The translations under genes and the position numbers were made by a program. DNA of 64,000 nucleotides from Sthenelais limicola (taxonomy: Eukaryota > Annelida > Polychaeta > Phyllodocida > Sigalionidae), in assembly GCA_942159475.1 (NCBI GenBank), contig OW804094.1, forward strand, positions 15,497,708 to 15,561,707, given 5' to 3'. A model generated the notes under the pieces. That model worked only from the letters and a program-made list of their open reading frames with translations, was not told the origin of the DNA and did no database searches. Shown here piece after piece: positions 17,552-63,627 of the stretch (position 1 is the stretch's first letter; every line of letters begins with the position of its first letter).

Positions 17552-17941
17552 ATATATATGAATTGTATAACTTCGCATAAACCTACTGCTCTCTATTATG
17601 GTACTACTTTGATCGAAACTCATCACCTAACATATGTATAAACCTCATCTCATCTCATTCCAACATCACCCATAATACTCTGTTCATATAAAACCCCATT
17701 ACTCTGTTATGTAAGTTGACATGGCCAGGCTCGGGGCGTAAATCAGGCGACATGCTTGTTCCCCGATGAATCAGGGTTGGCAAATGCCATAGCCCTTTTA
17801 TACTACCTGGATAAATAAAGTGTTAAAAAAATATTCTCATCAAGCATACAGTTACATATAAGAGAAAAAGGGTAGATTGTGACCTGTCAACAAACACTAC
17901 ACCAGGGTGTGTTGCTCTTCCCAGATGTCCTCGTATTATAA
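17552..17941. other. Intron 1, possible retroposon 3' end
   Basis: TACCTGGATAAATAAAGTG followed by an A-rich run at about 17805-17830 looks like a sense-strand retroposon tail, with a GC-richer block before it (about 17710-17800). No TSD found. Confidence 0.35.
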
Positions 17942-22447: not shown

Positions 22448-24868
22448 TTAATTTGTAACATAGTCTTTCATCCAGACCGGGTCTTTCCTCTGTCTGCTAG
22501 GCCTGCCAGTTGGTTGGACAGGTTGAGTTGGAAGAGGTTGCGCAGGTGGGATTTGAACTGGCATTGGACCGGGACGTATCTCCTGAGTCGGGCGGACTTG
22601 AGGTTGTATGTTGGGAGTTGGCCTTTGTCCCTGTTGGGCTGGTGGTCTGATTGGATTCATGACGATTGGTGGCAAGCGTGGCTCAGGTGTCCTGACAGTG
22701 TGAGGCTGCTCTTTAGTTGTCATGAGGTCCCTCCTGTTCCGTCTGTACACTCGTCCCTGCTCTCCTGCCTTTATTATGTGAGAGTTTGGGGAGTCGTCAG
22801 GCCTGATGTATTCAGCCGGTTTCCAGCCTTCTGGCGTCCATACTCTTGTGCCTTGATTTTCATTGATTGGCTTCAGTGGTTGCGCATCTCGGTCGTAGTA
22901 TAGCTTTTGCCTTCGCCGATATTCGATCATCTTATCGTGGACCTTTGTTGGTTCTGGGACCGCTGGTTTAAGCTTGCTGTCTGTGATGGGAAGGCTTGTC
23001 TGGGCACGTCTACCTTGCAGTCTCTGCATTGGCGAGCCCATCACATCATCTCGGGGAGTATTCCTTAGGTCAAGGAGTGCCAAGAAGAAATCGTCTCCAG
23101 ATTTCTTGCATTTCTTCATCAGCTGCTTGATCTGCCTCACCCCTTCTTCAGCCAGACCATTAGATTGTGGGTAGGTTGGCGAGGAGGTGATGTGGTTGAT
23201 GCCATACTCTGTGGTAAACTTCTTGAATTCGGAGCTTGAGAATTGTGGTCCGTTGTCACTGACCAGAGTCTCCATAATGCCGTACCTTGCGATGTTGGTT
23301 TTAAGGCGCTTGATGACTGTGGTGGCTTTCGTGTCTTGGAGGAGAGGTGAGACTTCTAGGAAGTTTGAGTAATAGTCTACCATGACTATGTAGTGTGCTC
23401 CGTCAAGTTCAAAAAGATCTGTGCCCACTTTGTTCCAAGGTAGCGGTGGAATCGGATGGATTGTCATCGGTTCTTTCTGTTGCTTGCTACGGTTTTCCAG
23501 ACAGGTGGTGCATTTATTGGCCATTTCTTCGATTTGGGCGTTGAGACCGGGCCAATAAATCATGTCTCTCGCTCTTTGCTTTGTCTTCACAATGCCTGTG
23601 TGAGATTGGTGTAATATTCTCAGCATTTTGCTTCTCAGGCTTTGGGGAACGATGATTCTTTCTCCCTTGAATAGGATGCCGTTGTATGTGCTGAGCTGAT
23701 CTCGCAGGCTCCAGTATGGGACTGCTGCACTTGGAAGGTCTTGTTTGTCCATCGGCCATCCATTGATGATTACCTTCTTCAGTACCATCATCTCGTCATC
23801 AGTTCTTGTAGCTTCTTCGATCTGACCATGCCATTTGTGTGCCAAAGTGTCTATTTTGCATACCATCAGATCTTCATCCATTGTGATGTCGCCGGGATCA
23901 CTGGCTATGGGAAGTCTGCTGAGGCAGTCGGCGAGACCAATTGACTTGCCGCTGACATGTATGAGATTGAACGTGTAGGGCTCTAGCTTGAGTCTCATCC
24001 GCTGAATCCTCATTGGTGCTGCGTTCATTGGTTTCTTCATCAGCGACTCTAATGGCTTATGGTCCGATTCAACTGTGACGTCATCTTTTCCGTATGCGAG
24101 TTTATGAAATTTAGTGCAGCCGTACACCACTGCCAACATTTCTTTCTCTATTTGTGCGTAGCGCTGCTCGGTCGGCGTCAAGGCTCTCGATGCGTAAGCG
24201 ACTACTGCACCATCTTGTATGGCTGCTGCTCCAAGTCCTTTACAACTTGCATCTACCGTTAGTAGTAGCGGCTTCTTTACGTCGTAGTACTTCAGGACTC
24301 GGTTGGATGATAGTTCAGCTTTTATTCGATCAAATGCTGCTTGGTGCTCAGGCTTCCAGCACCATTCTTCCTTCAGTTTGAGTTCTCGTAGGGGGGCAGT
24401 TAGTTCACTCAGTCGGGGAATGAACTTAGCAACGTATGCTACCATCCCAAGAACTGTTTCAAGTTCTTTGACATCATCTGGGGGTTTCATGCTTGTGATA
24501 GCCTTAACTCTCTCTTCAGTTGGCTTGAGTCCTTCTCCTGTCAACTTGTGACCGATATAGTTGACTTCAGATTGTCCAACATGGCATTTCTTCTTGTTTA
24601 ACTTCAGGTTGATTTCTCTGCATTTATGGAGAACTTTATGTAGCCTATCGTTGTGCTCTGTGACTGTTCTTCCATGGATGAGGATATCGTCTTGATATAT
24701 TTCCACTCCTGGGATTCCTTCAAAGGCTCCGACTAGTGCTGATTGGAACTTGTCCGCTGAGCATTTTGCTCCCATGGGCATCCGTAGGTTTCGGTATCTA
24801 CCAAAAGGCGTATTGAACGTGGTTAGATGTGAGCTCCTCTCGGATAACTTGATCTGGAAGTAGCCCAT
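22448..24868 (-). CDS. pol: Gypsy 1 Pol: RT (C-terminal part), RNase H, integrase
   Basis: 806 residues from an internal Met. RT motifs include FGRYR (22-26), the catalytic YQDD box (58-61) and YIGH (104-107). RNase H follows with acidic residues in VDAS (D206), EKEM (E242), SDHKPL (D269) and ADCLSR (D314). Integrase shows the zinc-binding H420/H423 and C453/C456, then the DDE triad in GTDLF (D484), VSDNG (D538) and GLAEEG (E574). The C-terminal 130 residues are Pro/Gln-rich. The preceding RT segment lies in another frame (24823-25731), offset by a small deletion. The frame after the break is intact to its stop. Confidence 0.93.
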   Translation of the reverse strand: MGYFQIKLSERSSHLTTFNTPFGRYRNLRMPMGAKCSADKFQSALVGAFEGIPGVEIYQDDILIHGRTVTEHNDRLHKVLHKCREINLKLNKKKCHVGQSEVNYIGHKLTGEGLKPTEERVKAITSMKPPDDVKELETVLGMVAYVAKFIPRLSELTAPLRELKLKEEWCWKPEHQAAFDRIKAELSSNRVLKYYDVKKPLLLTVDASCKGLGAAAIQDGAVVAYASRALTPTEQRYAQIEKEMLAVVYGCTKFHKLAYGKDDVTVESDHKPLESLMKKPMNAAPMRIQRMRLKLEPYTFNLIHVSGKSIGLADCLSRLPIASDPGDITMDEDLMVCKIDTLAHKWHGQIEEATRTDDEMMVLKKVIINGWPMDKQDLPSAAVPYWSLRDQLSTYNGILFKGERIIVPQSLRSKMLRILHQSHTGIVKTKQRARDMIYWPGLNAQIEEMANKCTTCLENRSKQQKEPMTIHPIPPLPWNKVGTDLFELDGAHYIVMVDYYSNFLEVSPLLQDTKATTVIKRLKTNIARYGIMETLVSDNGPQFSSSEFKKFTTEYGINHITSSPTYPQSNGLAEEGVRQIKQLMKKCKKSGDDFFLALLDLRNTPRDDVMGSPMQRLQGRRAQTSLPITDSKLKPAVPEPTKVHDKMIEYRRRQKLYYDRDAQPLKPINENQGTRVWTPEGWKPAEYIRPDDSPNSHIIKAGEQGRVYRRNRRDLMTTKEQPHTVRTPEPRLPPIVMNPIRPPAQQGQRPTPNIQPQVRPTQEIRPGPMPVQIPPAQPLPTQPVQPTGRPSRQRKDPVWMKDYVTN

Positions 24869-25662
24869 ATTCTTGCTAGGGTGGTGAAGTATTTGCTACC
24901 GTTCAATCTGGTGACAATATCATCTATATTGCTCATGGGGAAGTGTTCTCTGAGGATTGCCTTGTTCAAGTCTGTTGGATCGATGCATATCCTCACTTTG
25001 TCCTTATCCTTCTTGCTAACCACTACCATGCTGCTAACCCATGGCGTTGGTTCTGTCACCTTCTTTATGATGTTTGCTTTCTCCAACCTGTGGAGTTCAT
25101 CCTTCACCCTTTCTCTGAGAGCAGAAGGTACAGACCGCGGTGCATGAATGACTGGGGGAAAACTTTCGTCTATTTTGATATCATATTCCCCAGGGAGACA
25201 CCCAATTTGATCGCCAAATACGTCTGCATACTTGTTTACAATGTTTTCACATGCATCATTAACCATTACTTTGTTTGCGCGAGTCACAAGACCAAATTTG
25301 ACACAATCTGCTCTACCCAATAGATTTATATCCTTCTTACCATCTAGAACCTGGAAATCTACGTTCCTTGTCATATCTTTGTAAGTACATGGTAGAGTAA
25401 CAATACCTGTGGCTCTGTTGCTTTGACCGTGAATACCTGTTATGAACATCCTACTAGGCTTCAATACGTAGTTGGTCTTCAGCTGCTGCAAAGATTTTAG
25501 GCTAAGAATGTTGCATTTTGCACCTGTATCTAGTTCTACATCAATCATATCATTTGCAACCTTGAAAGATACATAGAAATCATCATCAAAATCATCATCT
25601 CCTGCAGTGTAAACATTGACGCTACAGTGCATGGTATCAAACGTGTCAAACATTTCATTCAT
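24823..25662 (-). CDS. pol: Gypsy 1 protease and RT N-terminal part
   Basis: The frame is open upstream to the LINE junction at 25731; 25662 is merely its first Met, so this is part of the Gag-Pol polyprotein. The retropepsin motif is LDTGA (D45 from that Met) with later INLLGRAD. RT begins around residue 165 and includes WVSSMVVVSKKD and RICIDPTDLN. After KYFTTL the frame runs into unrelated residues (ARIWATSR) and stops, while MGYFQIKL continues in the next frame. The intervening LDA-type element of RT motif A, with its catalytic Asp, is missing in both frames, which points to a short deletion near 24855-24870. Confidence 0.9.
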   Translation of the reverse strand: MNEMFDTFDTMHCSVNVYTAGDDDFDDDFYVSFKVANDMIDVELDTGAKCNILSLKSLQQLKTNYVLKPSRMFITGIHGQSNRATGIVTLPCTYKDMTRNVDFQVLDGKKDINLLGRADCVKFGLVTRANKVMVNDACENIVNKYADVFGDQIGCLPGEYDIKIDESFPPVIHAPRSVPSALRERVKDELHRLEKANIIKKVTEPTPWVSSMVVVSKKDKDKVRICIDPTDLNKAILREHFPMSNIDDIVTRLNGSKYFTTLARIWATSRSSYPRGAHI

Positions 25663-25731
25663 ATCATTATCAACATCAGTGTTATCATAGTAGTTACCGT
25701 GGTCGCTGTACTCAGTGTAACTCTCATAACC

Positions 25732-26037
25732 TTTTTTTTTTTTATTTTTTAAAGGTTTTTATTACAACAATCCTGCCATCGGGGCTTTTACAATTCTAGG
25801 CATATATGTACGTAACCTTTTTATTTTATATTTTTTTGGTCTTTTCTTTTTTTTTTCTCTCGACACACCTCATGAGTTTTTAGGCAACGGCGCCTCACTA
25901 CTTAACAGAAACAGAGAATTTTGACTCCTATTTTCTTTTTTGTTGAACACCAGTACTGTATCTACCTTAGCACCAGGCCACCCGGGAGTGAGCCATCAAC
26001 AACCTACACTTAAACCTTGTTCCAACAGCGGATTTCT
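25732..26037 (-). other. LINE 3' UTR and poly(A)
   Basis: About 300 bp between the ORF2 stop and the poly(A). T-rich on the plus strand, with several AAATAAAA-like words on the element strand. No coding content. Confidence 0.7.
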
Positions 26038-26721
26038 TTACCCAGCTTCTTCATCGTACAAGATTCTTCTCCACAATTTACATTTTTTAGGGTTTTCTCC
26101 CTTCATTTTCATGTTCATTTCAATAGACCTGAATCTATATCGCATTTCTAGTAAAAAGATTTTGAAAACCACATCATTTTGATAAAATAATCTCTGTCTA
26201 TTAATATAGTTCTTGGCCATTAACAGCGACCAATTTAAAAACTCACTGAATTTGTTGTGACCTTCATAGCCAAGTAATACGCAGCTTACTCTGATTCCTC
26301 TTACATCGAAATCTTCCATCGCAGTGTTGCCATTGCACCACTGGACATAATCATGCCAGAAACAGTTAACTTTTGGACATTCAAAGAAATAGTGGGTAAT
26401 CGAGTCAACATCTTCACAGTAATTACAAATATCTGAATCCAATATTTTGATTTGTTCAAGGTACTGGTTACAACATATGTTCCTGTGTATGACCTTGTAT
26501 TGTAATGACTGAAGCCTCGCCTCCTTCGTACAGGTGTATGGAATACAGAATACCTTAGCCCATACCTCTTTGGAGCCAATAAAACCATCATTGATCAGAA
26601 TCTCGTTCCATCTCAACAACTTTTTATATTTAGGCTTGTCTTTTTTAGCAAGTTCCTTGTATACAAGGTTGATTTTAAAATCATATATATTGAACGATGT
26701 ACCGTTAATCTTGAATTCCAC
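26038..26721 (-). pseudogene. LINE ORF2 C-terminal part, frame-shifted
   Basis: 227 residues of the ORF2 C-terminus in a different frame from the main ORF2. Recognisable features are KVFCIPYTCTKEARLQSLQY and a Cys/His region, CNYC ... HYFFECP ... FWHDYVQW, typical of the region after RT in L1/Tx1 elements. The main ORF2 stops at 26705 after entering another frame at the 10-base C run (26745-26754). One base fewer in that run would join the two frames. A replication-slippage mutation or sequence error is more likely than programmed shifting. Confidence 0.82.
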
Positions 26722-29700
26722 GAAGTTGTCTTGTTGTTCCCCTTCCCCCCCCCCTGGCTAGCATTAGCCATCTGCGAGGTACTGAGTCCCTGATTATTAA
26801 TCGATCTAGAAAGTTGCATTTTACACCATACCTGGCTCTAATTTCTTCGACCGATAGGAACATCATATTATTATTGACCAAGTCTCCAATGGTGCTAATA
26901 CCTTTTCTTTTCCATGGTGGGTTTTTTAAGACCCTTTTCCCACTCTTAATATATCTATTTTCCCAGATTCTTTCTCTCAGTACTTCATTTCTATTGGCAG
27001 GTTCCTTATTGTAATACAACCTCTTCCATATACTGAAAATTTCCTGAAAGAAATCACTAAGGTACTCCCTCGGCATCATTCTGCCTAGAAACAGATCTTC
27101 GACACTTTTTTTATGAAATGATTCAATAATACAGGTCCACTTTTTGTTTTTTCCAGCCAATATTGTGCTGATCCACTTAATTCTATTAGCAACAAAAATT
27201 TCCTCTATTGATCTTACTCTTAATCCACCATCCTCATACGATTGTTTTAGAAATTTTATACTTATTTTAACACCTCTTTTTCCCCACATCATTCTTCGTG
27301 TGACTTTTCCGATCTCTTTCCTAAGGTGGATCTCGGTGGGTACACAAGACAATACATGTTGTATGATAGGCAATATTAGAACATTATTAATTATGGCCTT
27401 ACCTTTTAGAGAAAGGTTTCTTCTGGCCCATGCACCAATGACCCCATTCATTTTTTGAATGGCCCCATCGAAATTTTTGCTTTGCTCCTCTGCTCTAAAG
27501 TCAGGGTGAAAAATGTGAACACCCAGAATCTTTACATCACTCCTCCATTTTACAAATTCACTTGTTTTTTTGTTTGATATTCGAACCCCCATATTAATAC
27601 CAAATGTTTTACTCTTATTGACTTTTAGACCAGAGATTTTACTGAAATCATGTAACACCTCAATTATTGTGGCTAAGGATTGTTCATCCCGCATAAATAT
27701 GGTAGTGTCATCCGCAAATTGTATTATTTTATGCTCAGTGCTACTTGTCACTATACCTTTTATGCGTACATCTTCTCTGATTTTGCAAGACAGGACTTCC
27801 GCAGCAATATTGAATAGAAATGGGGACACAGGATCTCCCTGTTTAACACCTTTTTCCAGGGCAAACCACCCCGACAGATAACCATTATTCGAAAAACATG
27901 CAGTAGAGTTTTTTAACAAAATATCTATCCACTTTATTGTGTGGTCCGGAAAGTTAAACTCTCTCATACATTCCAAAACATAGTCCCAGTTAATGGAGTC
28001 ATAGGCTTTCTGGAAATCTACAGCAACCAATAAACATTTGATATTTTCCTTCTCAGCATAACTTAACAAATCATGAGTTCTTCTGATGGCAACTCCAATA
28101 TATCTATTTTTCATAAAACCATATTGATCTTCATCTATAATGTCACTCAAAACCTTTTTAATTCTTTCTGCTATCATTTTTGAAATTATCTTATAATCTA
28201 CATTGAGTAGGGTTATAGGTCTCCAGTTCTTGATGAACCTGGTGTCCGCCCCCTTTTTAGGTATAACAGAAATTATCCCTTTGTATTGGTCCCAGGTCAT
28301 CTGACCTATCTTTTCCACTTCTGTTAACATCTCAACAAACAGGTTTCTGATATCTTTCCAAAAGAACTTGTAGAATTCTACCGTGAGGCCGTCTATTCCG
28401 GGAGCTTTATTATTATTCATGGAGTCAATAACCAATTTGATCTCTGCATCTGTAAATTGCCTAGAGAGAAAGTCATGGTCAGTATCTTTTACCTTATTTC
28501 GTATAGAGCCGAAAAAAGTTTCCCTCCCCCCTCCCCCCACATCTTCATTTTTGCAATAGAGATCAGTATAAAAATTCCTCCCCTCCTCCAGGATTTCACG
28601 TTGATCGTGTGATAGCACTCCGTCCACCATAAGCATGGAGATGGCTTTCTTTTTGGCGTTAGATTTTTCCAAATTAAGAAAATATTTGGACGATTTCTCT
28701 CCTTCTGTCATCCATTTTGCCCTGGCTCTAACTAAAGCTCCTTTTGCTTTACTTAATTCATTTTCTTTCAACTCCTTTCTCAGCTTTTTTAACTGCATTA
28801 CTTCTTCGTCTGTTAGACACACTTTCTCATCTAATTTTGAAACCAAGAACTCCTTTTCCACTCTATCACTATTATTTTTCTTAGACACCTTTCTGGCCAC
28901 TCTGATTGCCAACTCTCTACAGCCAGCTTTGAACATATCCCATTTCAATCTTTTACAAACTTTCTTGTCCATTTCTGTATACACTGATACAATATCTTTC
29001 ATACCATCTACGAATTCATTATTTGTAAGCAGTTTATTATTGAATTTCCAATATCCCGGACCTCTAGTGCTTTCATTTGCCTCTAGATTAATACACAACT
29101 CTTTATGGTCCGATAATACATTGATTTCAACATGCCCATCCGACACACTTCTACATAGCTCCACATCGATAAGTATATAATCTAACCTGGAGGTTTGATT
29201 ATTCCTCCTCCATGTGTGGTCGCCGAGCTCAATCATAGCCATTGCATCATTTAGTTCATGGCACTCAATAAAATTTCTGAAAATTTTAGCCGAATTAAAC
29301 TCAGGGTGATTATCAAGATCTATGTTAAAATCTCCCATTATACACAGGTTGTCATATTCAAGAGCCCCCAAAATGTTTTCGAGCTCGCCAAACACAACTG
29401 CTTGATCTTTATAGCAACAGCCAGTCGGCATATAAACTGACATGACACAGGTTTTAACATCTTCCTCTTCGAAAATGACATAAACAATACGACCATTCCC
29501 GTCATTACCTCTAACAATTATTTCAACATCTAAATCTCTAGACAATAAAATAGACACCCCTCTCTTGTTAGAGTCACCGTGACCAGCCACCATCCCCCCG
29601 CCCCACTGACACCTCCAAATCGCTTCTGATTCGGGCGTGCTGTGGGTTTCTTGGAGAGCTATTACTGCACGCTTCTCCTTGGCATACCTTCCGAAAATGG

Positions 29701-29836
29701 CTTTTCTTTTCTCTAACTGCCCTAAACCATTAACATTCAACGTTAAAAAATTTATGGATTTGGATCTCACACTATTGTCCTCAAAATTACCAAAAGGATC
29801 TCGCAAACTTTGAGTTTTATTAATGGTCGCTTCCAT
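26705..29836 (-). CDS. LINE ORF2: AP-like endonuclease and reverse transcriptase
   Basis: 1043 residues from an ATG 52 bp after the ORF1 stop. The endonuclease (about 28-250) has LNVNGL (N34), QETH (E63), GDFN (168-171), SRLDYIL and SDH (242-244), all APE-type catalytic motifs. RT (about 465-780) has NKAPGIDG (476-483), NWRPITLLN (537-545), motif A VDFQKAYDS (D607), QGDPVSPFLF (666-675), the catalytic FADD (707-710) and a LGVHIF turn. It nicks target DNA and copies the element RNA at the nick (known for the family). The last ~20 residues are out of frame. The catalytic core appears intact. Confidence 0.95.
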   Translation of the reverse strand: MEATINKTQSLRDPFGNFEDNSVRSKSINFLTLNVNGLGQLEKRKAIFGRYAKEKRAVIALQETHSTPESEAIWRCQWGGGMVAGHGDSNKRGVSILLSRDLDVEIIVRGNDGNGRIVYVIFEEEDVKTCVMSVYMPTGCCYKDQAVVFGELENILGALEYDNLCIMGDFNIDLDNHPEFNSAKIFRNFIECHELNDAMAMIELGDHTWRRNNQTSRLDYILIDVELCRSVSDGHVEINVLSDHKELCINLEANESTRGPGYWKFNNKLLTNNEFVDGMKDIVSVYTEMDKKVCKRLKWDMFKAGCRELAIRVARKVSKKNNSDRVEKEFLVSKLDEKVCLTDEEVMQLKKLRKELKENELSKAKGALVRARAKWMTEGEKSSKYFLNLEKSNAKKKAISMLMVDGVLSHDQREILEEGRNFYTDLYCKNEDVGGGGRETFFGSIRNKVKDTDHDFLSRQFTDAEIKLVIDSMNNNKAPGIDGLTVEFYKFFWKDIRNLFVEMLTEVEKIGQMTWDQYKGIISVIPKKGADTRFIKNWRPITLLNVDYKIISKMIAERIKKVLSDIIDEDQYGFMKNRYIGVAIRRTHDLLSYAEKENIKCLLVAVDFQKAYDSINWDYVLECMREFNFPDHTIKWIDILLKNSTACFSNNGYLSGWFALEKGVKQGDPVSPFLFNIAAEVLSCKIREDVRIKGIVTSSTEHKIIQFADDTTIFMRDEQSLATIIEVLHDFSKISGLKVNKSKTFGINMGVRISNKKTSEFVKWRSDVKILGVHIFHPDFRAEEQSKNFDGAIQKMNGVIGAWARRNLSLKGKAIINNVLILPIIQHVLSCVPTEIHLRKEIGKVTRRMMWGKRGVKISIKFLKQSYEDGGLRVRSIEEIFVANRIKWISTILAGKNKKWTCIIESFHKKSVEDLFLGRMMPREYLSDFFQEIFSIWKRLYYNKEPANRNEVLRERIWENRYIKSGKRVLKNPPWKRKGISTIGDLVNNNMMFLSVEEIRARYGVKCNFLDRLIIRDSVPRRWLMLARGGGRGTTRQLRGIQD

Positions 29837-29888
29837 CTTGGATGCTTGAAGGGGTCACATGACCAGTGGACCAATCATAGTCTGTTCA

Positions 29889-31070
29889 CTAGTCCTCTAC
29901 CTCTGTTTCCCCGCCACTTTCCTCCTCTATGTCCTCGGCTTGATCTCCCTGGTCCTTCGCTAGTTTGGCTTTGATATTGTCCCGCATTTTCATCCATGAG
30001 TAGCCAAGGAGATTGCCCCCTTGGGGCCAAGTTGAGGTGTCAAGGACATCATCCTCCCTCAACCCCTTGCCAATTCCCCATATTTTGTCATATCTGCTCG
30101 CTTCAGCAATACTTTTTTCTCCTGTCTTAAGGAGATATTCTGCAATAAATGGATTGTCCTCCATTTTCGCGCTCAAGCCTCTCTCTACTACATCTTTTAT
30201 TCCCTGCATCCACTTCTTGTATAGGTCAGAAGCTTGCCTTTTTGCAGTGTTGAGCAAGCCCTTGCACTGTACTGGATCCGGAGATGTTAAGACAGACTCT
30301 GCCTTAGCTGGGTTTTCTGTGTTCCTCACGCACGAGTAAGCTAAGTACTGCTCCATGCAGCTGAAACGCTTACCGTCGACATGGAAACTTGCCAGGAAGT
30401 GATTGGATAGTGGGGAGTCTTTGCCTGAGAATGCTAAGGCATCCTCATCTTCCGTGGTAGATAGGGTGATGGGATTGATTTCGTCAGGCAAAAGATTTAA
30501 CTTATCATATGTGTACACTTCCCTGTCGATAGTGACATTACCATCAAATTGAAAAACTTTCCCCCATTTCTTCAATGCACGGGCTCTTCTGACAATGAAT
30601 TCCGCCCTTGAAACCCTGTCCCTCAGAATTTTAGGCATATCTTTCTTAACCCAAATTTTAGTTTTTCCATCTAATGTGAAATTCTTGAGCCCTACTCTGT
30701 AAGACCAAAAATCATCTGCATCATAGTCATTTGAGAAAACCACCTTGACAAGGCTTCCTACTCTGAAGAATCTCGCATCATAAGGTACACGCATACCTAG
30801 CCCATTCTGAAAGATGTTTGCCATCTCTCTCTCGATGTAATCTTCATCTTTGTTGGCTTCCTTCTTGGGAATGCCTTCAATAATAAAGTTATACCTCATC
30901 TCCTCTTTCTCCCTTAGTAGCCTCTTGTCTGCGGTTCTCCTGGTTTCCGCCGCTATTTCCAGAAACACATCGTCATCCTTTCGTACCATTTGCCTCCTCA
31001 TTTCATTGATAACTTTTTCCTGCCTTTCTAGCTTTCTTTCTAAAGCTTCCAGCCTAGCTTCTCGCTTCAC
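29889..31070 (-). CDS. LINE ORF1 (main part): L1-ORF1p-like RNA-binding protein fused to a NADAR domain
   Basis: The 393 residues from 31070 begin at a GTG inside the frame, which is really open up to the TTAA insertion at 31147. Residues 1-55 are a charged coiled coil (LEALERKLERQEKVINEMRR). Residues 59-195 resemble the L1 ORF1p RRM and C-terminal domains (YNFIIEGIP, then KIWVKKDMPKILRDRVSR and a VYTYDKL end). Residues 213-368 form a NADAR (YbiA/DUF1768) domain: FSGKDSPLSN (214-223), F-HVDG (229-233), EQY (240-242), LKTG (314-317), EASRYDKIWGIGKG (323-336) and GGNLLGYSWMKMRD (351-364). An acidic tail follows. NADAR proteins act on ADP-ribosyl or riboflavin-pathway N-glycosidic bonds (known of the family). 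A role here is inferred. The N-terminus continues beyond the nested element at 32112-32305. Confidence 0.9.
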   Translation of the reverse strand: MKREARLEALERKLERQEKVINEMRRQMVRKDDDVFLEIAAETRRTADKRLLREKEEMRYNFIIEGIPKKEANKDEDYIEREMANIFQNGLGMRVPYDARFFRVGSLVKVVFSNDYDADDFWSYRVGLKNFTLDGKTKIWVKKDMPKILRDRVSRAEFIVRRARALKKWGKVFQFDGNVTIDREVYTYDKLNLLPDEINPITLSTTEDEDALAFSGKDSPLSNHFLASFHVDGKRFSCMEQYLAYSCVRNTENPAKAESVLTSPDPVQCKGLLNTAKRQASDLYKKWMQGIKDVVERGLSAKMEDNPFIAEYLLKTGEKSIAEASRYDKIWGIGKGLREDDVLDTSTWPQGGNLLGYSWMKMRDNIKAKLAKDQGDQAEDIEEESGGETEVED

Positions 31071-31150
31071 AATTCCTTTATCAATGTCTTCAAACTTCTG
31101 GTCATACTCCTTACATTTACCTCCGACAGCAGTGTCTATTCTGAGGTTAA

Positions 31151-32111
31151 GGTGACTCAGTAGTGATTTTGATTATTGATGAATTTTTCTAAAATTTTTA
31201 CCAATGATAGTTGACATGAAATAATCATTATTGAGAGAAAAAAAAACATAGGTCACCAGGCTAGTTTTCATGCTATGGCAGTATGGAGATAGAAATAATG
31301 AATCATATTTGAGTAATTTTACTACATTTGAGTGATTTATTAACATTATTCGTTTGAAATGGTTCTGACATGAATTCAGACATCAAATTTCACCCAGACA
31401 TTCAACATATATATACTTATCATCAGATAATGTTTTTTTCCTCAGATCCTGAGTTAGCCCCCTGGAAGCCCCCTAGTGGCAGTATGGGGCACTAGCAAAA
31501 TTGACTTTGGCTGATGACAATCAGCTTTTTTTAAAAAAACTGTTTGATGAATATTTTTTAAATTTAATATGAATGTAGATACCGTATTTACCAACTCATA
31601 CACAAAAAATCAGGATGGCTTTCCAGGCTAAATTTTTCTATATTACGACTTATTTATGAGAAAAATTGGGAAAAAAAATAAATTCCTGATTAATATTTGA
31701 TTTGAATAAAAATGGCTTCATAAATCTTGATGAAATTCTATATGGATACAGCTATCATAGTTACTAACTCGCACACCAAAAATCAGCATGAATTTAGAGG
31801 CCGATTTTTTTGTGTTACAACTTAATTGTGAGAAAATTGGCTAAAAATGAGAAAATTCTTAATAAATATTTGATTTATACACATATGGCTCCATAAATTT
31901 TAATGAAATTTAATATGGATGTATAAGGATTGTAGATACTAACTCCCACACCAAAAATCAGCATACATTTTCTATCTGAAATGTTTATATCAAGACTTAA
32001 CATACATACTTCGTCTGCATAATGCTGATATTCCCTGCTATATGTGTTGAATACACATATATCAGTACTGAGCTATATGCATTGAATACACAAGATCAGT
32101 ACTGAGTCACC
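31151..32111. mobile_element. TTAA-target DNA element inside LINE ORF1 (961 bp)
   Basis: TTAA at 31147-31150 and 32112-32115 flank perfect 12-bp inverted ends GGTGACTCAGTA / TACTGAGTCACC. The interior holds about three diverged ~173-bp tandem units marked by ACTC-CACACCAAAAATCAGCA at about 31593, 31766 and 31940. Non-coding. It brings a stop codon into ORF1 (in the first codons after the junction), so the LINE is inactive. Removing it, with one TTAA kept, leaves the flanking frame continuous. Confidence 0.9.
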
Positions 32112-32305
32112 TTAAGTCTTTGTTCCATCTGGAGCAGAAACTCAGTGACATCTTCGTCTTTCTTATCATCTTTCTGACCCTCCTTCTTATCGCCTTTCTT
32201 TTCTCCTTTCCCCATATTGGATCCCGGAGATTTATCTTTCTTTTTGACACTATCTTTGGCAACCAACTTTGCGTCTAGGGTAGATTGCCTCAACCCTGGG
32301 GCCAT
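32112..32305 (-). pseudogene. LINE ORF1 N-terminal part
   Basis: From ATG at 32303-32305, about 64 residues, extremely Lys-rich (KKKDKSP, GKGEKKGDKKEGQKDDKK) and ending in a heptad-like EFLLQMEQRL that leads into the coiled coil beyond the TTAA element. With the downstream part, ORF1 would be about 483 residues. Separated by the insertion, so not translatable as one protein. Confidence 0.8.
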
Positions 32306-33595
32306 CAGCGCCGCCACCCTCACGCCTAGAGCCTGTAGGGAAGTTCTATCTAGCCAGGTATATAGGTCACCTAGATGAGCCTAAGGTCAGGTCCCCTCGA
32401 CACTTGTATGATCAGCTGGTAAAAGCAGGCCTAGCTGTTGTTCATACAGCTCGACTCACACAGATAGGATATTCTATCTAGGGATTTAATTAGGTTACCT
32501 AGATCGTCCACATGAGACAGTTCTCCAATTGTACTCTTAGTAATTTACACTTCTTATCTCACTTCTCGCAGCCAACTGCCCTGCTTGTATATATATAGGC
32601 TGAGATTGACGCACTAGGTTTAACATGTGCTTTGAGTGGGCGTGGCAGTTTGTTATTGTACTGTCTTGGGCGGAAAGATTGTTGTGCGCATGCGCAAGGT
32701 TCAAACTTCCGGTATGGGTTTCCCGCTCGGTTCAGTATTTTCCAACCATCTCAACAGATACTTATCATGAAGCTATTGCCATTTAATAAACATGTAAACC
32801 TTGCGTCTAGACATTGCATTCAAACCGTTTTCACAGAATCCTTTCTTTTCCGAGTTCAACTTGGTTGCTAGTCCTGACACCACTACGTGCTGTGCTCCCG
32901 GGGTTGTGCTTAGCAGAGAGAATGGTCCTATGCACGTTTAGCTTTCTCATTTGTCATGAAAAAGTTCAATCTTAGAGATACAATCCACAGTGAGCAGTTT
33001 GTGTTGTATGTCCTTGTTATACTTTTCCCTGTCATTCAACTATAGACACCTGTTAGCTCCCGATGTGGATTACTCCAGGGATGCTACTTGGGGTCCTCTT
33101 CCCGCTTATTAGTCCCCAGCGAGGTTGACAAGGTGGCAAGATGGCAGCCACCAGTAAGCTGATTTTTTGTCGAAATAGATGATTTTTTTTATCAGCTTTT
33201 CACAGGTCCCTTGGTTAGCATATGGGTCACTAAATCGTTATTTCCAAATGATTCACAACACGATTTAAGGCACAAGAATGTCAATTGTTGGCAGATGGCA
33301 CCACAAATAAGGTCTCTTATAATTCCTCCAGGCGATAATATGCATCCACGCTTCCTCCAGTGGGCAATGGGGGGTGCGTGGTACCGCTTGGATTAGTGGA
33401 GTCTATATGTAGCCCAAACTTCCTCAATTTACGTTTTTCAGCTGGAACTATCTGAGACAACTGTCACTGGTGCTTCATGCATGAAGTACCGTACTCTTGT
33501 GTTTTGGATCCTTCCTGGAACTGTCCTGAAACTGAAAAAAAAAAGGGAGCTGACGCTCCACCCTTGTGTTCTCGATCTAGGCTCAACCGGAAGTC
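32306..33595 (-). promoter_or_regulatory. LINE 5' UTR / internal promoter region
   Basis: 1.29 kb with no ORF related to known proteins. The element start has GACTTCCGG (ETS-type, plus-strand CCGGAAGTC at 33587-33595). A perfect NRF1-type palindrome lies at 32685-32696, with another ACTTCCGG close by at about 32706. AAGATGGCAGCC near 33140 is a YY1-type word on the plus strand. These fit an internal pol II promoter. Confidence 0.6.
32685..32696. promoter_or_regulatory. NRF1-type palindrome TGCGCATGCGCA
   Basis: Exact palindromic NRF1 consensus within the LINE 5' UTR. A near-identical TGCGCATGCGCG occurs in both gypsy 1 LTRs. Confidence 0.55.
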
Positions 33596-34588
33596 ACTCT
33601 CATAACCTTCATTACCATTGGTGTAATGCACATTTCTACCTCGACTGTTACCCCTTCCACGGCCATTAGACTGACCGCGACCTCTTTTCTGGTAATACTG
33701 AGAATTATCGCGAGGCTTGTTGCCTTGATTTGCTTGGCATAAAGGTGACCTTTTGTAGTGACCCCTAAGCCCACAACCTCCAGAATACTCACTATCTGCT
33801 TTACAATATGTTGGTGGATGGTTGCGGCAACATTTGTTACATTTAGGTGATTGGCCTTGGTAGCCTGTACCACGACCTCTACCTCTACCTCTAGCAAAAC
33901 CTTGGGGTTGACCCCTGCTACCTGAGTGTTTCTGATAGTGTACTTGTGATTCGCCCTGATTCTGAGTTTCTAAAGATTTCACATGGGCTTTTGTAAGTTC
34001 TACCTGTCTGCAGATCCTGGTAACATTGTTCATAGTTAGCTCTTCATCCGAAAGTTCCATTAGTTTTTCAGTACACTTAGAATCATTGACCCTATTTATT
34101 ATCATGTCAATGATGAGGCTGTCTTCCAAGGCCCCATAGTTGCAATGTTGGGCTTTAGCCCTCAAGTCAGAAATGAAGCCCATGATGGTTTGAGTCTTTA
34201 TGTTTCTGGTTGTGCCAAGGAACTCCTGCCTTTTGATACTACGGTATCTTTGTACCCCAAAATATGCGTCAAACTTAGCAAATACAGTGTTCAAGTTATA
34301 CCTGTCTTCTGCAGCAACTCCTACTACTCCTAGGATGCCATTATCTGGGTCAGCTTCAACTGCATCAATGGCTTGAGCCCAAACAAAACTATCATATATT
34401 TTCACATGCTCCTTGCCCATGTGTTTTAGTAGCTGTCCCACCAACCTTCTACCAGCGGCATCATGTAGTCCTTTGGAGTCTAGGTGGATTTCAAACTGTC
34501 TCTTATATGCTTCCCATTCACTAGCACATGATTCGATGTCTGATGGGTTGAATCTACCAAGCTTGGCTCCACTGTCGTCGTCGGCCAT
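33464..34588 (-). CDS. gag: Gypsy 1 Gag, interrupted by the LINE
   Basis: The start ATG at 34586-34588 follows a 195-bp leader. True Gag sequence runs to 33596 (331 residues, ending ...NEGYES); the remaining 43 residues to the stop at 33464 come from the LINE 5' end. Capsid-type helices cover about 20-215. Then come RG-rich stretches (232-240, 301-319) and a zinc-knuckle pair: C250-x2-C253-x3-H257-x4-C262 is complete, but the second, GCGLRGHYKRSPLC (C272, H277, C284), has Ser instead of the first Cys. In the unbroken element, Gag is in frame with protease. Confidence 0.9.
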   Translation of the reverse strand: MADDDSGAKLGRFNPSDIESCASEWEAYKRQFEIHLDSKGLHDAAGRRLVGQLLKHMGKEHVKIYDSFVWAQAIDAVEADPDNGILGVVGVAAEDRYNLNTVFAKFDAYFGVQRYRSIKRQEFLGTTRNIKTQTIMGFISDLRAKAQHCNYGALEDSLIIDMIINRVNDSKCTEKLMELSDEELTMNNVTRICRQVELTKAHVKSLETQNQGESQVHYQKHSGSRGQPQGFARGRGRGRGTGYQGQSPKCNKCCRNHPPTYCKADSEYSGGCGLRGHYKRSPLCQANQGNKPRDNSQYYQKRGRGQSNGRGRGNSRGRNVHYTNGNEGYESDFRLSLDREHKGGASAPFFFSVSGQFQEGSKTQEYGTSCMKHQ

Positions 34589-35070: not shown

Positions 35071-36156
35071 TCATGGCTTCCACCAGACACTCTTCCATAC
35101 AAATTAATTATCCATATTTAAAGTTGTGAGAAAAAAAACACTGCAGCAGGAGGTGACAATAAAGTATTATGGGATCAATTTTCTACAACTTATTCTTGGA
35201 GATTTCTCATATCTAAACAATTTATTTCCCAGCTCATTATATAGGTACTGTGTCAGTGAGGTATCTTGTTCAATTTATCGTTCAGATAACCTTTTTAAAG
35301 TGGAGCTCTATAGAGTTGATTCTATGAATTGGTTGATGATGTTGGGTGAACTGTTACCACCTGTGATGTAAGAGAGCCCGGAAACTTCCTAGCGCGTGCC
35401 CATTCTACCATTCTATCCCGTCATTTCTTACTCTTAGAAATACTTATTATGGTGGTAGGGGGTGCGGTAATGGAAATACTGGGAGGTCCTTATGAGTGGT
35501 ACAGAACTCATGCATCTGTCTATGTCTCTCTCTCTCTGATGTTATATATGACACCATAATATGCTAATTTATACATTTTAATGTTTTAAATAACAGCACA
35601 ATAACAATCCCTTGATGAAGATCACCCTATAATCGAAATGTTGGGAAATGAATAAAATTACTGTTTGTTTGCGTCGAAACATTTATTTAATTATAAATCT
35701 TTTATGAAGTACTTTGTTATGCATGATCAGTACACGCTTGAAAACCTCTCAGTCAGTCAGAAGCCTATCACCCTTTTTATGCCAAGAAGTCATCAATCAA
35801 TTATACACAATGCCTAAAAAATATTCTTCTGAGACCAAGACTGGATGTATCTTTGCCAATTCTTAGTTCTTGAACTGAAACTTTGTTCTTAATATTCTTT
35901 TTCATACGTTTCATGGATATATCAATGTTGTTCCCGACCTTAAAGTTATTGTTGCATTGTGTATTAGCTAGCAACGTGCATCCACTTGCCTGGATATTAC
36001 CTCCATTGCTTGAGTTCTCAGATCTTTCTTGGAAATATGTCAACAATAAAAGGCCATGCCATAAGAATATGTGCCACTGTTTGTATCGTAGTTTCTTGAA
36101 TTTTATATAACTGTAATTCAAAGATCCAACTCTGATGTCAAGTCTGAGTGATATGT
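35071..36156. other. Intron 1, no gene seen
   Basis: Non-coding. Contains a (CT)n patch at about 35525 and the retroposon tail at 35609-35660. Confidence 0.5.
35609..35660 (+). repeat. Retroposon tail, CTGATGAAG family, copy 2
   Basis: CTTGATGAAGATCACCCTA, then ATCGAAATGTTGGG, then AATAAAATTA. Same order and strand as the copy at 3942-4000. Confidence 0.4.
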
Positions 36157-36391
36157 GGGTAAGATTTTCAGAAAATGTACAATTTACCTTCACCGATCCT
36201 TTCAAATAACCCACATTTAAGACCACAATGAGCTTCACAATGCAGTTTAACATAACAGAACTGATACTTTGAATCAATGCGATACCAAATATACTCAAAC
36301 ATATCTGGAATTTATCATTTTTCAGCCTAAATTAGCAGAAGTTCCTAAAAGTGTAGAGCTGCGAATTGTACATTTTCGGAACATCTGACCC
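36157..36391 (-). mobile_element. MITE family A, copy 9
   Basis: Complete reversed copy. Flanks ATGT/ATAT are one base from a perfect duplication. Confidence 0.85.
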
Positions 36392-37047
36392 ATATGATCA
36401 CCTGCACTGAAGGGCATGGGACATATATTTATTATATCAAACTTATTTCGTTGGAGAATATTGCATTGCAGTACATACAAAAAATATTTCATATTTTGAT
36501 ATTTTATTCAACTACTATATTATGTATCAAGTACAATGTTCTCACTCAGTGCTGACAAAAATACCCAAATATTTTTTAACAGAATCAGTACAAATCAAGG
36601 GTGTAAAGGTGTGCTATCTGTTAAATTTATTTTCACAAACCACCAAAACTTGTACTTTCAGAAAGATTCTGAAGTTTTCCCATTTTCGTAATTGTTATAC
36701 TAACATTAACAATAGTAATACAAGTTTTTTTTTTTAAAGATTTTATTTCCACCGGGGAAACATTTCCCAGTAAGCTGGGTTTTTCCAATGCGCCCAGCTT
36801 GGGGTAACGATGAGTAATTGAGAGAGAAAAAAAACCATAAAGCATATTTGCTAATTACAGACACTTAAATTGGAATTGATGGCTAGGTATAGCATTGGGT
36901 AAAGGAAGTATGAAGATGTACACTTTGAACAATTATAAACAATCAAATTGGAAGTTGTTACATAGTTGAAAACAGTGCTCCAGGGGATAATCACAATCTA
37001 AGACTTAGAGTGTGACCCCAGTGGGAGAGTAAGAGGTGGTAATACAT
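36392..37047. other. Intron 1, possible antisense retroposon tail
   Basis: A T run at 36726 followed by AAAGATTTTATTTCCACC and a GCTGGG...CCCAGC inverted pair suggests a truncated antisense retroposon. No TSD found and no gene. Confidence 0.4.
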
Positions 37048-38180: not shown

Positions 38181-39420
38181 TTCCCTCCCTGCTTATAACA
38201 TTGAATGAATGACCTGCTGATGCTTCTCCCTCTGCTCTCCCTCCTGCTTATAACATTGAGTGAATGAACTGCTGATGCTACTCCCTCTGCTCTCCCTCCT
38301 GCTTATAACATTGAGTGAATGTCCTGCTGATGCTACTCCCTCTGCTCTCCCTCCTGCTTATAACATTGAGTGAATGACTTGCTGATGCTTCTCCCTCTGC
38401 TCTCCCTCCTGCTTATAACATTGAGTGAATGACTTGCTGATGCTACACCCTCTGCTCTCCCTCCTGCTTATAACATTGAGTGAATGACTTGCTGATGCTA
38501 CTCCCTCTGGTCTCCCTCCTGCTTATAACATTGAGTGAATGACTTGCTGATGCTACTCCCTCTGCTCTCCCTCCCTGCTTATAACATTGAGTGAATGTCC
38601 TGCTGATGCTGCTCCCTCTGCTCTCCCTCCCTGCTTATAACATTGAGTGAATGACATGCTTCTCCCTCTGGTCTCCCTCCCTGCTTATAACATTGAGTGA
38701 ATGACCTGCTGATGCTACTCCCTCTGCTCTCCCTCCCTGCTTATAACATTGAGTGAATGACTTGCTGATGCTACTCCCTCTGCTCTCCCTCCTGCTTATA
38801 ACATTGAGTGAATGACTTGCTGATGCTACTCCCTCTGGTCTCCCTCCTGCTTATAACATTGAGTGAATGACTTGCTGATGCTACACCCTCTGCTCTCCCT
38901 CCTGCTTATAACATTGAGTGAATGACTTGCTGATGCTACTCCCTCTGGTCTCCCTCCTGCTTATAACATTGAGTGAATGACTTGCTGATGCTTCTCCCTC
39001 TGCTCTCCCTCCTGCTTATAACATTGAGTGAATGACTTGCTGATGCTTCTCCCTCTGCTCTCCCTCCCTGCTTATAACATTGAGTGAATGTCCTGCTGAT
39101 GCTACTCCCTCTGCTCTCCCTCCTGCTTATAACATTGAGTGAATGACTTGCTGATGCTACTCCCTCTGGTCTCCCTCCTGCTTATAACATTGAGTGAATG
39201 ACTTGCTGATGCTTCTCCCTCTGCTCTCCCTCCCTGCTTATAACATTGAGTGAATGACTTGCTGATGCTACTCCCTCTGCTCTCCCTCCTGCTTATAACA
39301 TTGAGTGAATGACTTGCTGATGCTACACCCTCTGGTCTCCCTCCCTGCTTATAACATTGAGTGAATGTCCTGCTGATGCTACTCCCTCTGCTCTCCCTCC
39401 CTGCTTATAACATTGAGTGA
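38181..39420. repeat. 55-bp minisatellite, about 23 units
   Basis: The unit contains CCTGCTTATAACATTGAGTG, AATGACTTGCTGATGCTAC and TCCCTCTGCTCTCCC. The word GCTTATAACATTGA occurs 23 times. Units are 54-56 bp; variation is mainly TCC/TCCC, ACTTG/TCCTG and CTC/GTC. Just beyond, at about 39432-39480, one unit recurs in inverted orientation, and a diverged unit lies near 39900. Confidence 0.95.
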
Positions 39421-39730
39421 TTAGCCTGGGGGAGTAGCACCATTCACTCAATGCTATAAGCATGGAGGGAGATCAGAGGAAATCCAAATGAAATGAAGCC
39501 ATCTGTTGTAGAGGCTTAACTGGCTCAGTGTATTTGATCCTTTATTATACACGCATTGCTCTGAGAACAACGTATCTAGATTGATTTACACATTGTGCGT
39601 ATTTCACTAGTGATTTACATGGGGTTGTCATGGCAACCAATCTATTTTTTTACTAAAATTACCGGTAAAATTCAAATTTATGAGTCAATTTTTTTCTATT
39701 TTCATGATTGAAAGCATGTATAATAAATCT

Positions 39731-43213: not shown

Positions 43214-44338
43214 TTAGCATTCCTCAATTAACCTTCTGGTTCTTTGGGATGTTCTTACTGACCTTCTTATACCCTTAGTATCTGGTGTTTTAGGTCGGTC
43301 TTCTATAATTCTTTCTTCAACTCTTATGGTTACATTACCCTTATCTCTATTCATTTCTGCGGTACTGTTCTGTTCTTTATCATTTATTGTTTTGGTTATG
43401 TCGCCATCTTCTTCCTCCTCATATTGTTCCTCACTCATTCTTTCACTTACTGCACCTTTAGGAACACTCAATAGGTGCCTGCGATTGCGACGTAGTATAT
43501 TACCTTTTTCTGTCTCAATATTGTAAGACCTTTCACCCAGCCTCTCTACTATCTTCCCCGCCTGATCCCACTTTTTGTCCCTTATCAGCACAGTGTCCTC
43601 AGGCTGTAAGGGACGCAGAGCTTTGGCTCTCTGATCATAATTATCACTGTCGTTTGATTTTGACCCCATGTTATTATTTTTGATCGACCTGTTGTTGTCA
43701 CCTCTCCATGTAGGTATCGGTCCCCGTATCTTTCTACCGTGCAGAGCCTCAGCAGGTGATAGGCCATTTTCCATAGGCGCCGCTCTGTAATTCAGTAACG
43801 CCAAGTATGGGTCCTGTCCTTTTTCTGCCGTTCTGGACAGAATTCCTTTCATGATGCCTATCGCCCGCTCTGCTTTTCCGTTTGACTGCGCGTAGGTGGG
43901 GCTAGATGTCCGATGATTGAAGCCGTATGTTTCTGCGAAGTCTCTGAAATATTGAGAGTTAAATTGTGTCCCGTTATCTGATATTACCAGCTGTGGCACG
44001 CCATACCTAGCAAAAACACTCTTAGTATGTAATATTACTTGTTCCGAGCTTTTGTTACTGAGTTTCACAATTTCTGGGTAGGAAGAATAATAGTCAACAA
44101 TCATTAGGTAGTCATTGTTCCTCCAGAAAAATAAGTCCATCCCTACTTTCTCCCAGGGACCCCATGATTCTCCATCCCTCATCATTGGTTCCTTTTGCTG
44201 ATCGGGGAGGTATTTAAGGCAGATCCCACAGTTCTTGACACTATACTCTATTCTTAGCTTTTCCTTCTTTGCTATTGGAACCCTTCGGGGGGGGGGATTA
44301 TCACTGGTTCTGCCCCTGGTCTTAGTTTCGGTGGACAT
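43214..44338 (-). CDS. pol: Gypsy 2 integrase (partial Pol)
   Basis: 374 residues. Only the second half of the zinc-binding domain remains (CGIC, 37-40); the His pair is lost at the deletion. The catalytic core is complete: D68 in VGMDLF, D121 in ISDNGTQF and E157 in GKAERAIG. A C-terminal chromatin-type barrel region (DTVLIRDKKW, ERLGERSYNIET) and a charged tail follow. The frame overlaps the Gag-protease ORF by 17 nt, so the deletion junction lies near 44320. The N-terminal ~30 residues, ahead of KLRIEYSVKNC, are not integrase-like and may derive from the junction. Confidence 0.9.
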   Translation of the reverse strand: MSTETKTRGRTSDNPPPRRVPIAKKEKLRIEYSVKNCGICLKYLPDQQKEPMMRDGESWGPWEKVGMDLFFWRNNDYLMIVDYYSSYPEIVKLSNKSSEQVILHTKSVFARYGVPQLVISDNGTQFNSQYFRDFAETYGFNHRTSSPTYAQSNGKAERAIGIMKGILSRTAEKGQDPYLALLNYRAAPMENGLSPAEALHGRKIRGPIPTWRGDNNRSIKNNNMGSKSNDSDNYDQRAKALRPLQPEDTVLIRDKKWDQAGKIVERLGERSYNIETEKGNILRRNRRHLLSVPKGAVSERMSEEQYEEEEDGDITKTINDKEQNSTAEMNRDKGNVTIRVEERIIEDRPKTPDTKGIRRSVRTSQRTRRLIEEC

Positions 44339-45815
44339 ATGGGATGGATGTTAATTTGGCTACCTCAGGTAAAATACACTCTTTTACTTCGATCACATTT
44401 TCTGAAGTATAGGGTTTATCTATGAGATGTACACCTACCGCCTTTTCTTCCTTCGTGACATTTCTGGTGATATAGCCCACTCTTTCAGCAGTATCGCCTC
44501 CCAGCAACGATATTCCCTCGCATACTATGAATCTTACTGGATACTGTCTTTCATTCACTGTGACTTTCCTCATTATGTAGCCTCTGACCGGTATTGCATG
44601 TCCATTGTAATCTGTCAGTTTTACCTTTATTTGTTTTAGCGGTGGTCTCTTGGTTAATCCTTCATAGTCACTGACATTCATTAAATCAGCTCCCGCTCCT
44701 GTATCTATTTTACAGGTGATCGTATCAGATCCAACTTGCAGGTTAGCTGCCCACTTGTGCCTTTTACTGATAGTTACTGCTAGCACTCGCTCCTCCTTTT
44801 GTTTGTTGACAGTGCCTATGAAGAGAGTATCCTCGTCTTCCTCCTGTGAATATGCATCATCTTGGGTCACTACTTCATCAACTCTACTCCAGCATTTAGA
44901 TTCTATGTGTCCTTTCTTTTTACATCTTGTGCAACGGTGCGGGCAATCCCTGTACACATGTCTGGCCCCACACTTCTTGCAGTCAATCATTTGTTTTGCG
45001 TTTGGCCCCGTGACACGAGGAGCCCGTGTGTCACAAGGAGCCCGTGTGTCACTCATCGCTGCGGCTCCTGCTCCCTTTTGTGCCGATCCATGATGGGGAG
45101 CCTGGCGGTCACGTGGTCTGGTCACTTGATTGACAGTGACCTGTGCTCCGGGATTCATTTCCCTCAGCTCTCTCTCCTTTTGCGTATGTCTCTTACAATA
45201 TACTAACGCTTCCTCCAGTGTTAGGTTTTCCTTTTTTACTAGTTTTTCTCGTAGGTTTAGATCCTTCATGCCCACTACCATTCGTTCCAGGACAAATTCA
45301 TCAACAGCATCGCCCCACTCACAAGTGGCTGCCTTGAGGCGTAGATCGGTAACGTAAGCGTCTATCGACTCACCCTCGTCTTGGCATCTGGTATTGAACT
45401 TGAACCGTTCGAAGAACCTGTTCCTCCTGGGCATGCAGTATTCGTCAAATTTCCTTATGACTGTAGGAAAATGTGTCTTGTCTTCTGCAGGAACCTCAAA
45501 AACCTCTGGAACTGCTGGTGGTCCCACTATCGCCGCGTGTGGTGCTATCCTAGGCGCCCATCTGAAGTTGCGATAGATTCTTTTTGGTCCCACTATCGCC
45601 GCGTGTGGTGCTATCCTAGGCGCCCATCTGAAGTTGCGATAGATTCTTTTTGCCTCCGGACCAGCCACGTGGAGGAGCATGGACGTGGGACGCTTGGGCA
45701 CTTCAACCCCCATCGTGTCTGCATACCATGTATAATCCTCCTTAAAGAGGGCCCATCGTTCTGCTACGTTTCCTTCAACGAAGTCCATTTGTTCAGGTGG
45801 CCTTATACCCTCCAT
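44322..45815 (-). CDS. gag: Gypsy 2 Gag and protease
   Basis: 497 residues from the ATG at 45813-45815, 35 bp inside the 5' LTR. A Gag capsid-like region covers about 10-220. Two zinc knuckles follow: C279-x2-C282-x3-H286-x4-C291 and C295-x2-C298-x4-H303-x4-C308. The retropepsin signature IDTGAGADL starts at D371, with ISLLGGD towards the end. Residues 56-77 are repeated exactly at 78-99 (a 66-bp in-frame duplication), and DTRAP also repeats nearby. The ORF ends just after protease where RT should begin, in line with the deletion. Confidence 0.92.
   Translation of the reverse strand: MEGIRPPEQMDFVEGNVAERWALFKEDYTWYADTMGVEVPKRPTSMLLHVAGPEAKRIYRNFRWAPRIAPHAAIVGPKRIYRNFRWAPRIAPHAAIVGPPAVPEVFEVPAEDKTHFPTVIRKFDEYCMPRRNRFFERFKFNTRCQDEGESIDAYVTDLRLKAATCEWGDAVDEFVLERMVVGMKDLNLREKLVKKENLTLEEALVYCKRHTQKERELREMNPGAQVTVNQVTRPRDRQAPHHGSAQKGAGAAAMSDTRAPCDTRAPRVTGPNAKQMIDCKKCGARHVYRDCPHRCTRCKKKGHIESKCWSRVDEVVTQDDAYSQEEDEDTLFIGTVNKQKEERVLAVTISKRHKWAANLQVGSDTITCKIDTGAGADLMNVSDYEGLTKRPPLKQIKVKLTDYNGHAIPVRGYIMRKVTVNERQYPVRFIVCEGISLLGGDTAERVGYITRNVTKEEKAVGVHLIDKPYTSENVIEVKECILPEVAKLTSIPYVHRN
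45519..45650 (-). repeat. 66-bp in-frame tandem duplication in gypsy 2 Gag
   Basis: Two exact adjacent 66-bp units, encoding KRIYRNFRWAP...AAIVGP twice, in the capsid region. The identity shows it arose recently. Confidence 0.9.
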
Positions 45816-63558: not shown

Positions 63559-63627
63559 ATATACATTCGAGTAGGGAAAGATATATTTTATATAGATGAC
63601 ATGCAGCTTCCATAATTCCATGCTTAT

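Follow-up and report, generated by a model that had tools for sequence, protein, structure and literature searches.

The 64,000-nucleotide stretch of the polychaete Sthenelais limicola analyzed here (contig OW804094.1; this whole stretch is referred to as the window) contains a long interspersed nuclear element (LINE) whose first open reading frame (ORF1) encodes a type II ORF1 protein, with a coiled coil, an RNA recognition motif (RRM), and a C-terminal domain (CTD), that has gained a NADAR domain at its C terminus. The NADAR part is under purifying selection in the genomic copies of the element. Within the clade of the window copy, the catalytic side of the NADAR pocket is kept and its adenosine/phosphate side is rebuilt. 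Our preferred reading, to which we assign a probability of roughly 0.4, is that the ORF1-borne NADAR erases host-made base adducts from the nucleic acid of the element; the catalysis, the target, and the adduct are all inferred.

Domain architecture of the ORF1 protein

The reading frame under study comprises 393 codons (29889..31070, minus strand, like all coordinates of protein domains and residues given below). In the structure model, residues 2-58 (30897..31067) formed a single unbroken helix, and the first 90 residues counted from position 31145 gave a heptad score of 7.5 against a shuffle mean of 3.76 (p 0.005), which agrees with the coiled coil claimed in the initial annotation. This helix is followed by an RRM-like domain (about residues 59-144, 30639..30896) and a CTD-like domain (about residues 145-204, 30459..30638). 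Both fall within residues 14-204, the span that 2yko and 2ykq matched structurally on re-alignment of Foldseek's best 1000 chains, and the previously proposed L1-ORF1p-like RNA-binding module was thus recovered. The protein therefore displays the type II order of coiled coil, single RRM, and CTD.

The NADAR domain occupies about residues 205-372 (29955..30458). It scored 83.3 bits with the Pfam model NADAR PF08719 (cut-off 35.1) and 88.9 bits with TIGR02464 (cut-off 73.7), and the NADAR fold was predicted across the whole domain, supporting the earlier claim of a full-length NADAR in a LINE ORF1. Of the two Pfam families proposed there as a check on the 393-residue protein, NADAR was found and Transposase_22 gave no match to ORF1.

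Genomic copies and selection on the NADAR domain

A search of the host's own assembly (1.13 Gb, 161 contigs) with ORF1 as the query gave at least 106 matches at no fewer than 105 places (E <= 0.001); these counts are lower bounds, with 105 of 4962 candidates scored. Among the matches listed, 78/106 had no internal stop and 102/106 reached residue 360 or further. Seventy copies were chosen, of which 62 were stop-free and reached residue 360, a figure biased by the choice of rows, because L031-L070 were picked by hand from the remaining table and mostly from its stop-free rows. L010, L042, and L065, which lacked the motif, were omitted, and the pocket count covered 59 copies. A second query, the NADAR protein P0046 of Patella caerulea, gave 150 matches, partly at the same places as the ORF1 query; 20 of these (L071-L090) were chosen for variety, and 18 further host copies were retained after L073 and L083 were dropped as too short. 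Two exon-like matches to P0046 on contig C8 (60-61% identity) presumably represent the host's own canonical NADAR gene.

Fifteen pairs without a shared member were picked greedily from 61 stop-free own-genome copies at a pooled synonymous difference of 0.06-0.6. The pooled ratio of nonsynonymous to synonymous differences per site (pN/pS) over these independent pairs was 0.124 for the NADAR and 0.103 for RRM plus CTD, with NADAR values of single pairs ranging from 0 to 0.58. When the window copy was compared with its nearest families (L003-L008), dN was 0.10-0.12 in the NADAR and 0.14-0.15 in RRM plus CTD, dS being saturated. At the protein level, the NADAR was closer than the adjoining CTD in 58/66 pairs of 12 proteins (mean 0.437 vs 0.351). 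Since the NADAR was constrained in DNA and protein comparisons alike, we conclude that the domain is in use; the constraint across genomic copies that the initial annotation had made a test of its proposal was indeed present.

Relatives and origin of the fusion

Three long relatives with an identical domain order (654, 721, and 763 residues) were found among 5.8 billion proteins, so that the fusion is not confined to the window copy. A profile of the NADAR domain gave 1370 matches, the best 120 of which were listed. The top 26 new matches (P0004-P0029, at least 149 bits, all from the source 'lgn', taken as Logan) were treated as the LINE-type set; the next match, at 145 bits, was a stand-alone Antedon protein, and the scores showed no sharp break below the set. 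The grouping was borne out by upstream matches and by the tree. An RRM plus CTD profile built from four long proteins matched upstream of the NADAR in 17 of the 19 LINE-type pieces with at least 20 residues there, whereas of 13 other proteins in which such a stretch precedes the NADAR, P0041 alone fell below 1e-3 (1.1e-4). In a tree of 72 rows, the 30 LINE NADARs formed one clade (100/97); the 41 non-LINE rows were a sample consisting of nine named proteins, 30 random draws, 8bau, and 2b3w. Of the non-LINE proteins, P0040, P0054, P0107, and P0121 were dropped because they lacked the search motif.

The trees fit a single capture of the NADAR by LINEs. A separate origin of the window NADAR was rejected: grouping it with P0030, an animal protein, gave p 3e-7, grouping it with every non-LINE row of the tree but P0041 gave p 0.016, and grouping it with P0041 itself gave p 0.019. 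Three host copies, L080, L085, and L090, stood outside the main LINE NADAR clade in both trees. The approximately unbiased (AU) test was compatible with a common origin of these three and all other LINE NADARs (p 0.47; p 0.125 without L080), and a second capture is not claimed for them.

Two observations adjoin this subject. P0041, a public protein from a 190-kb contig, carries its NADAR after an apparent ORF1 CTD end and adjoins the LINE NADAR clade in the tree. L085 (contig C6) and L090 (contig C1) are LINE ORF1s whose NADAR loop is closer to the canonical one, with G78 kept, and may reflect a second capture. In viral contigs, 140 pattern matches were obtained and none was confirmed, records near the source genome possibly having been left out.

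Residues of the NADAR pocket

Pocket residues are numbered as in 8bau, following PMC11543638. Residue E240 (30351..30353) is the counterpart of the distal-ribose residue E43, C247 (30330..30332) lies at the place of lysine K50, and E323 (30102..30104) corresponds to the catalytic E125, the YbiA-type glutamate. In the own-genome copies, E43, K75, W89, and E125 were kept in 59/59 and W133 in 58/59; the ribose-binding glutamates and pocket tryptophans are thus near-invariant in the window clade. A glutamate at the E125 position, a trait of the YbiA subfamily, was present in the window copy, in all 30 LINE NADARs, in 59/59 own-genome copies, and in 17/18 further host copies. The D130 position was occupied by Asn in 11/59 own-genome copies and 14/30 LINE NADARs.

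Proposed role of the NADAR and alternative explanations

Human L1 ORF1p coats the RNA of its element as trimers. Judging from the shared L1 fold, the window ORF1p presumably trimerizes on element RNA as well, which would concentrate the NADAR on this RNA and on nascent cDNA during target-primed reverse transcription. There the NADAR would most likely cut an N-glycosidic base adduct laid down by the host, ADP-ribosyl-guanine being the best documented class, and removal of the adduct would rescue the template and allow reverse transcription to proceed. We place this eraser role first because NADARs alone are reported to clear ADP-ribose from guanosine in RNA and because certain clams ADP-ribosylate guanine in DNA. 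NADARs are described as the only hydrolase family reported to reverse ADP-ribosylation of guanosine in RNA (PMC11833690), and six edible clams possess guanine-N2 DNA ADP-ribosylating activity, CARP-1 having been cloned from one of them (PMC11209040). Erasure of CARP-1 marks by NADARs is an assumption rather than a demonstration in PMC11543638.

Several facts weigh against an eraser, foremost the residue at K50, which was Cys in the window copy and in 59/59 own-genome copies of its clade. This position was Arg in 15/29 and Lys in 14/29 'lgn' relatives, and Lys in 14 and Arg in four of the 18 further host copies. A one-off decay of the window copy, which the Lys or Arg of its 29 'lgn' relatives might have suggested, is ruled out by the 59 copies with Cys. 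The window clade therefore lacks the Lys (or, in vitro, Arg) at K50 that guanine-ADP-ribose hydrolase NADARs need for efficient hydrolysis. K50 contacts the phosphate and the adenine, and its counterpart in the E. coli C7 NADAR is essential for efficient hydrolysis of guanine-linked ADP-ribose; an Arg mutant hydrolyzed the substrate in vitro, yet gave no rescue of cells from DarT1 (PMC11543638). The adenosine/pyrophosphate-site residues G78, R79, and Y84 were likewise replaced in most LINE NADARs, G78 by Leu in 30/30 and Y84 by Asp or Glu in 26/30, whereas 89 non-LINE proteins, which are the listed ones nearest to the LINE profile and so do not represent NADARs at large, had Gly at 78 and Tyr or Phe at 84 throughout. 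Leu at 78, which was also present in 59/59 own-genome copies, is nevertheless not a mark of all LINE NADARs: the 18 further host copies had Met (12), Gly (three), or Leu (three) there, so that the loop differs among LINE lineages. Outside the window clade even the glutamates vary, with Asp at E43 in L089 and Lys at E125 in L085 (1/18 each). Moreover, constraint is a sign of use and not of catalysis. The reversal of host ADP-ribosylation put forward in the initial annotation is accordingly plausible from the literature and from E43 and E125, but it is opposed by the Cys at K50 and by the changed adenosine loop.

Because the lysine is replaced by an invariant Cys and the adenosine loop is lost, the substrate in the window clade would be expected to have shifted from the classical guanine-N2-ADP-ribose. 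We regard it as a tentative possibility that the re-tooled NADAR is a new enzyme inside a retrotransposon, with a substrate other than guanine-N2-ADP-ribose, which could have arisen from an arms race with host nucleic-acid ADP-ribosylation. A shifted substrate and a binding role are the main rivals of the eraser. As a binding or assembly module, the NADAR would have lost hydrolysis, its pocket would bind a ligand, a base, or a protein, and it would offer an additional RNA-contact or partner-recruiting surface; the Cys at the position of the hydrolysis lysine in every copy counted, the lost adenosine-loop residues, and the Asn at D130 are what such a module might show. We consider it somewhat unlikely, as a mere scaffold would have no need of the conserved E43, E125, W89, and W133, and beyond the window clade the K50 position of LINE NADARs is occupied by Lys or Arg (29/29 'lgn' and 18/18 host copies).

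An action on small NAD-derived molecules, such as cyclic or linear ADP-ribose signals or NAD-like RNA caps, would blunt an innate-immune signal instead of repairing element bases. It has been suggested for phage NADARs (PMC9503650) and would suit a pocket with altered phosphate contacts; fusion to an RNA-coating protein points instead towards a nucleic-acid target and makes this explanation improbable. More doubtful still is the removal of ADP-ribose from proteins (ORF1p or host factors) on which antiviral PARPs have placed it, as proposed for viral macrodomains. Animal RNA viruses with a NADAR mostly lack a macro domain and vice versa, which was taken there to indicate similar targets (PMC9503650), but the NADAR literature examined, in the excerpts at hand, gives guanine-linked ADP-ribose in DNA or RNA and no de-ADP-ribosylation of proteins. 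That the NADAR is only a passenger, a chance fusion without function carried by an active element, is very hard to maintain: although domain shuffling occurs in LINE ORF1s (PMC4120745), such a passenger is contradicted by the pooled pN/pS of 0.124 and by the existence of one deep LINE NADAR clade with conserved pocket residues at a mean pairwise identity of 46% among 30 sequences.

If the NADAR is active as an eraser, the retrotransposon brings its own means of removing a chemical mark from nucleic acid. Base ADP-ribosylation directed against mobile elements is, to our knowledge, known solely from bacteria and phages, and the eraser role, if true, would argue indirectly for its use by invertebrate hosts against such elements. 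With over a hundred matches in the host and several subfamilies differing at K50 (Lys, Arg, or Cys), the idea is directly testable by comparison of subfamilies.

Comparison with known systems

The NADAR-ORF1 fusion is already in print: one paragraph of PMC12477816 (Genome Biology 2025) describes NADAR in the ORF1 of several Crassostrea gigas Tx1 LINE families as well as in Ectocarpus Gypsy elements. It suggests a part in the processing of RNA intermediates. Like the window LINE, the C. gigas elements carry the domain in an L1-superfamily ORF1p and are probably of the same kind; they are divergent Repbase matches, whereas copy count, selection, structure, and active-site analysis, as far as the excerpt goes, are available only for the window LINE. 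A retrotransposon of another class with a YbiA-family NADAR shares the domain but has it in another position; possible horizontal transfer was suggested there, and the matches were almost all bacterial.

The window NADAR differs from E. coli YbiA (2b3w), P. nicotianae 8bau, and the E. coli C7 NADAR by the change of K50 to Cys, the altered G78-R79...Y84 loop, and the fusion to ORF1p. Human LINE-1 ORF1p, also of type II, has no NADAR and shared about 12% identity with the window ORF1p in the structural alignment. The type IV ORF1p of CR1/L2 LINEs is likewise enzyme-bearing, but with an esterase instead of a NADAR (PMC4120745). The NADARs of animal RNA virus polyproteins (PMC9503650) and of nematode SNA-3, which has three of them and a role in trans-splicing (PMC9303266), are invertebrate examples connected with RNA metabolism that lie outside retrotransposon ORF1s.

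Among the papers listed by searches of open-licence PMC articles, several of which matched more papers than were listed, there was no further report of a NADAR in a LINE, nor any that dealt with selection or with a change at K50. The word NADAR was absent from the LINE ORF1 paper PMC4120745 and from the mollusc LINE paper PMC10294476; in another mollusc LINE paper, PMC11203168, 'glycosidase' and 'DUF' were absent, 'NADAR' not being among the words looked for.

The LINE insertion and other features of the window

The LINE spans 25734..33595 (minus strand) and is bordered by a 14-bp target-site duplication, ACTCTCATAACCTT, which lies at 25720..25733 on the 3' side and, as an exact match, at 33596..33609 on the 5' side; its poly(A) lies at the low-coordinate end and adjoins the 3' copy. 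Its second frame, ORF2, encodes an APE endonuclease and a reverse transcriptase (26705..29836, minus; Exo_endo_phos 4.1e-12 and RVT_1 6.5e-44 in Pfam). One frame change near the ORF2 3' end of the window copy places the C-terminal part (26038..26721, minus) in another frame, where it gave no Pfam match of its own. The best match of ORF2 among PDB sequences was human LINE-1 ORF2p (6e-80), the next element being R2 (8.6e-25). Judged by the ORF2 domains, this nearest match, the target-site duplication, and the poly(A), the element can be assigned to the L1 superfamily.

ORF1 as a whole begins with an ATG at 32305, ends with a stop at 29889 (29889..32305, minus), and is split by a 961-bp insert (31151..32111), the phase being equal on both sides. 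The N-terminal piece (32112..32305, minus), which is lysine-rich, was translated separately. The insert has terminal inverted repeats with 31-nt arms (87%) and is flanked by TTAA at 31147-31150 and 32112-32115; from its ends, we take it to be a piggyBac-type miniature inverted-repeat transposable element. Copy L002 (contig C4) has a single TTAA and exactly lacks the insert, with 99.6% identity to the window LINE across 2744 and 1425 bp. L002 in turn shows a minor length difference, and we therefore claim functionality for neither L002 nor the window copy.

The LINE interrupts the gag-pol part of a Gypsy-like long terminal repeat (LTR) element (22448-25662 and 33597-34588, minus), whose gag and pol frames resume on either side. 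The Gypsy-like label and the gag, protease/reverse transcriptase, and integrase frames were assigned by eye, and the gag frame had no Pfam match. Rfam at gathering thresholds gave no match within the 64-kb window. Elsewhere in the window, a C-terminal ORF2 fragment of another LINE (2483-3169, minus) was 31% identical to the ORF2 end of the window LINE, and a second Gypsy-like element (43214-45815, minus) showed gag- and integrase-like frames by eye. A tandem repeat at 38182-39428 has a unit of about 55 bp, with units about 93-97% alike, and a 151-codon frame (13587-14042, plus) consists mostly of a 102-bp tandem repeat. At no fewer than ten places, for example 10656-10904, 17309-17557, 36151-36395, and 63319-63565, there is a dispersed repeat about 245 bp long, whose copies are 83-97% alike.
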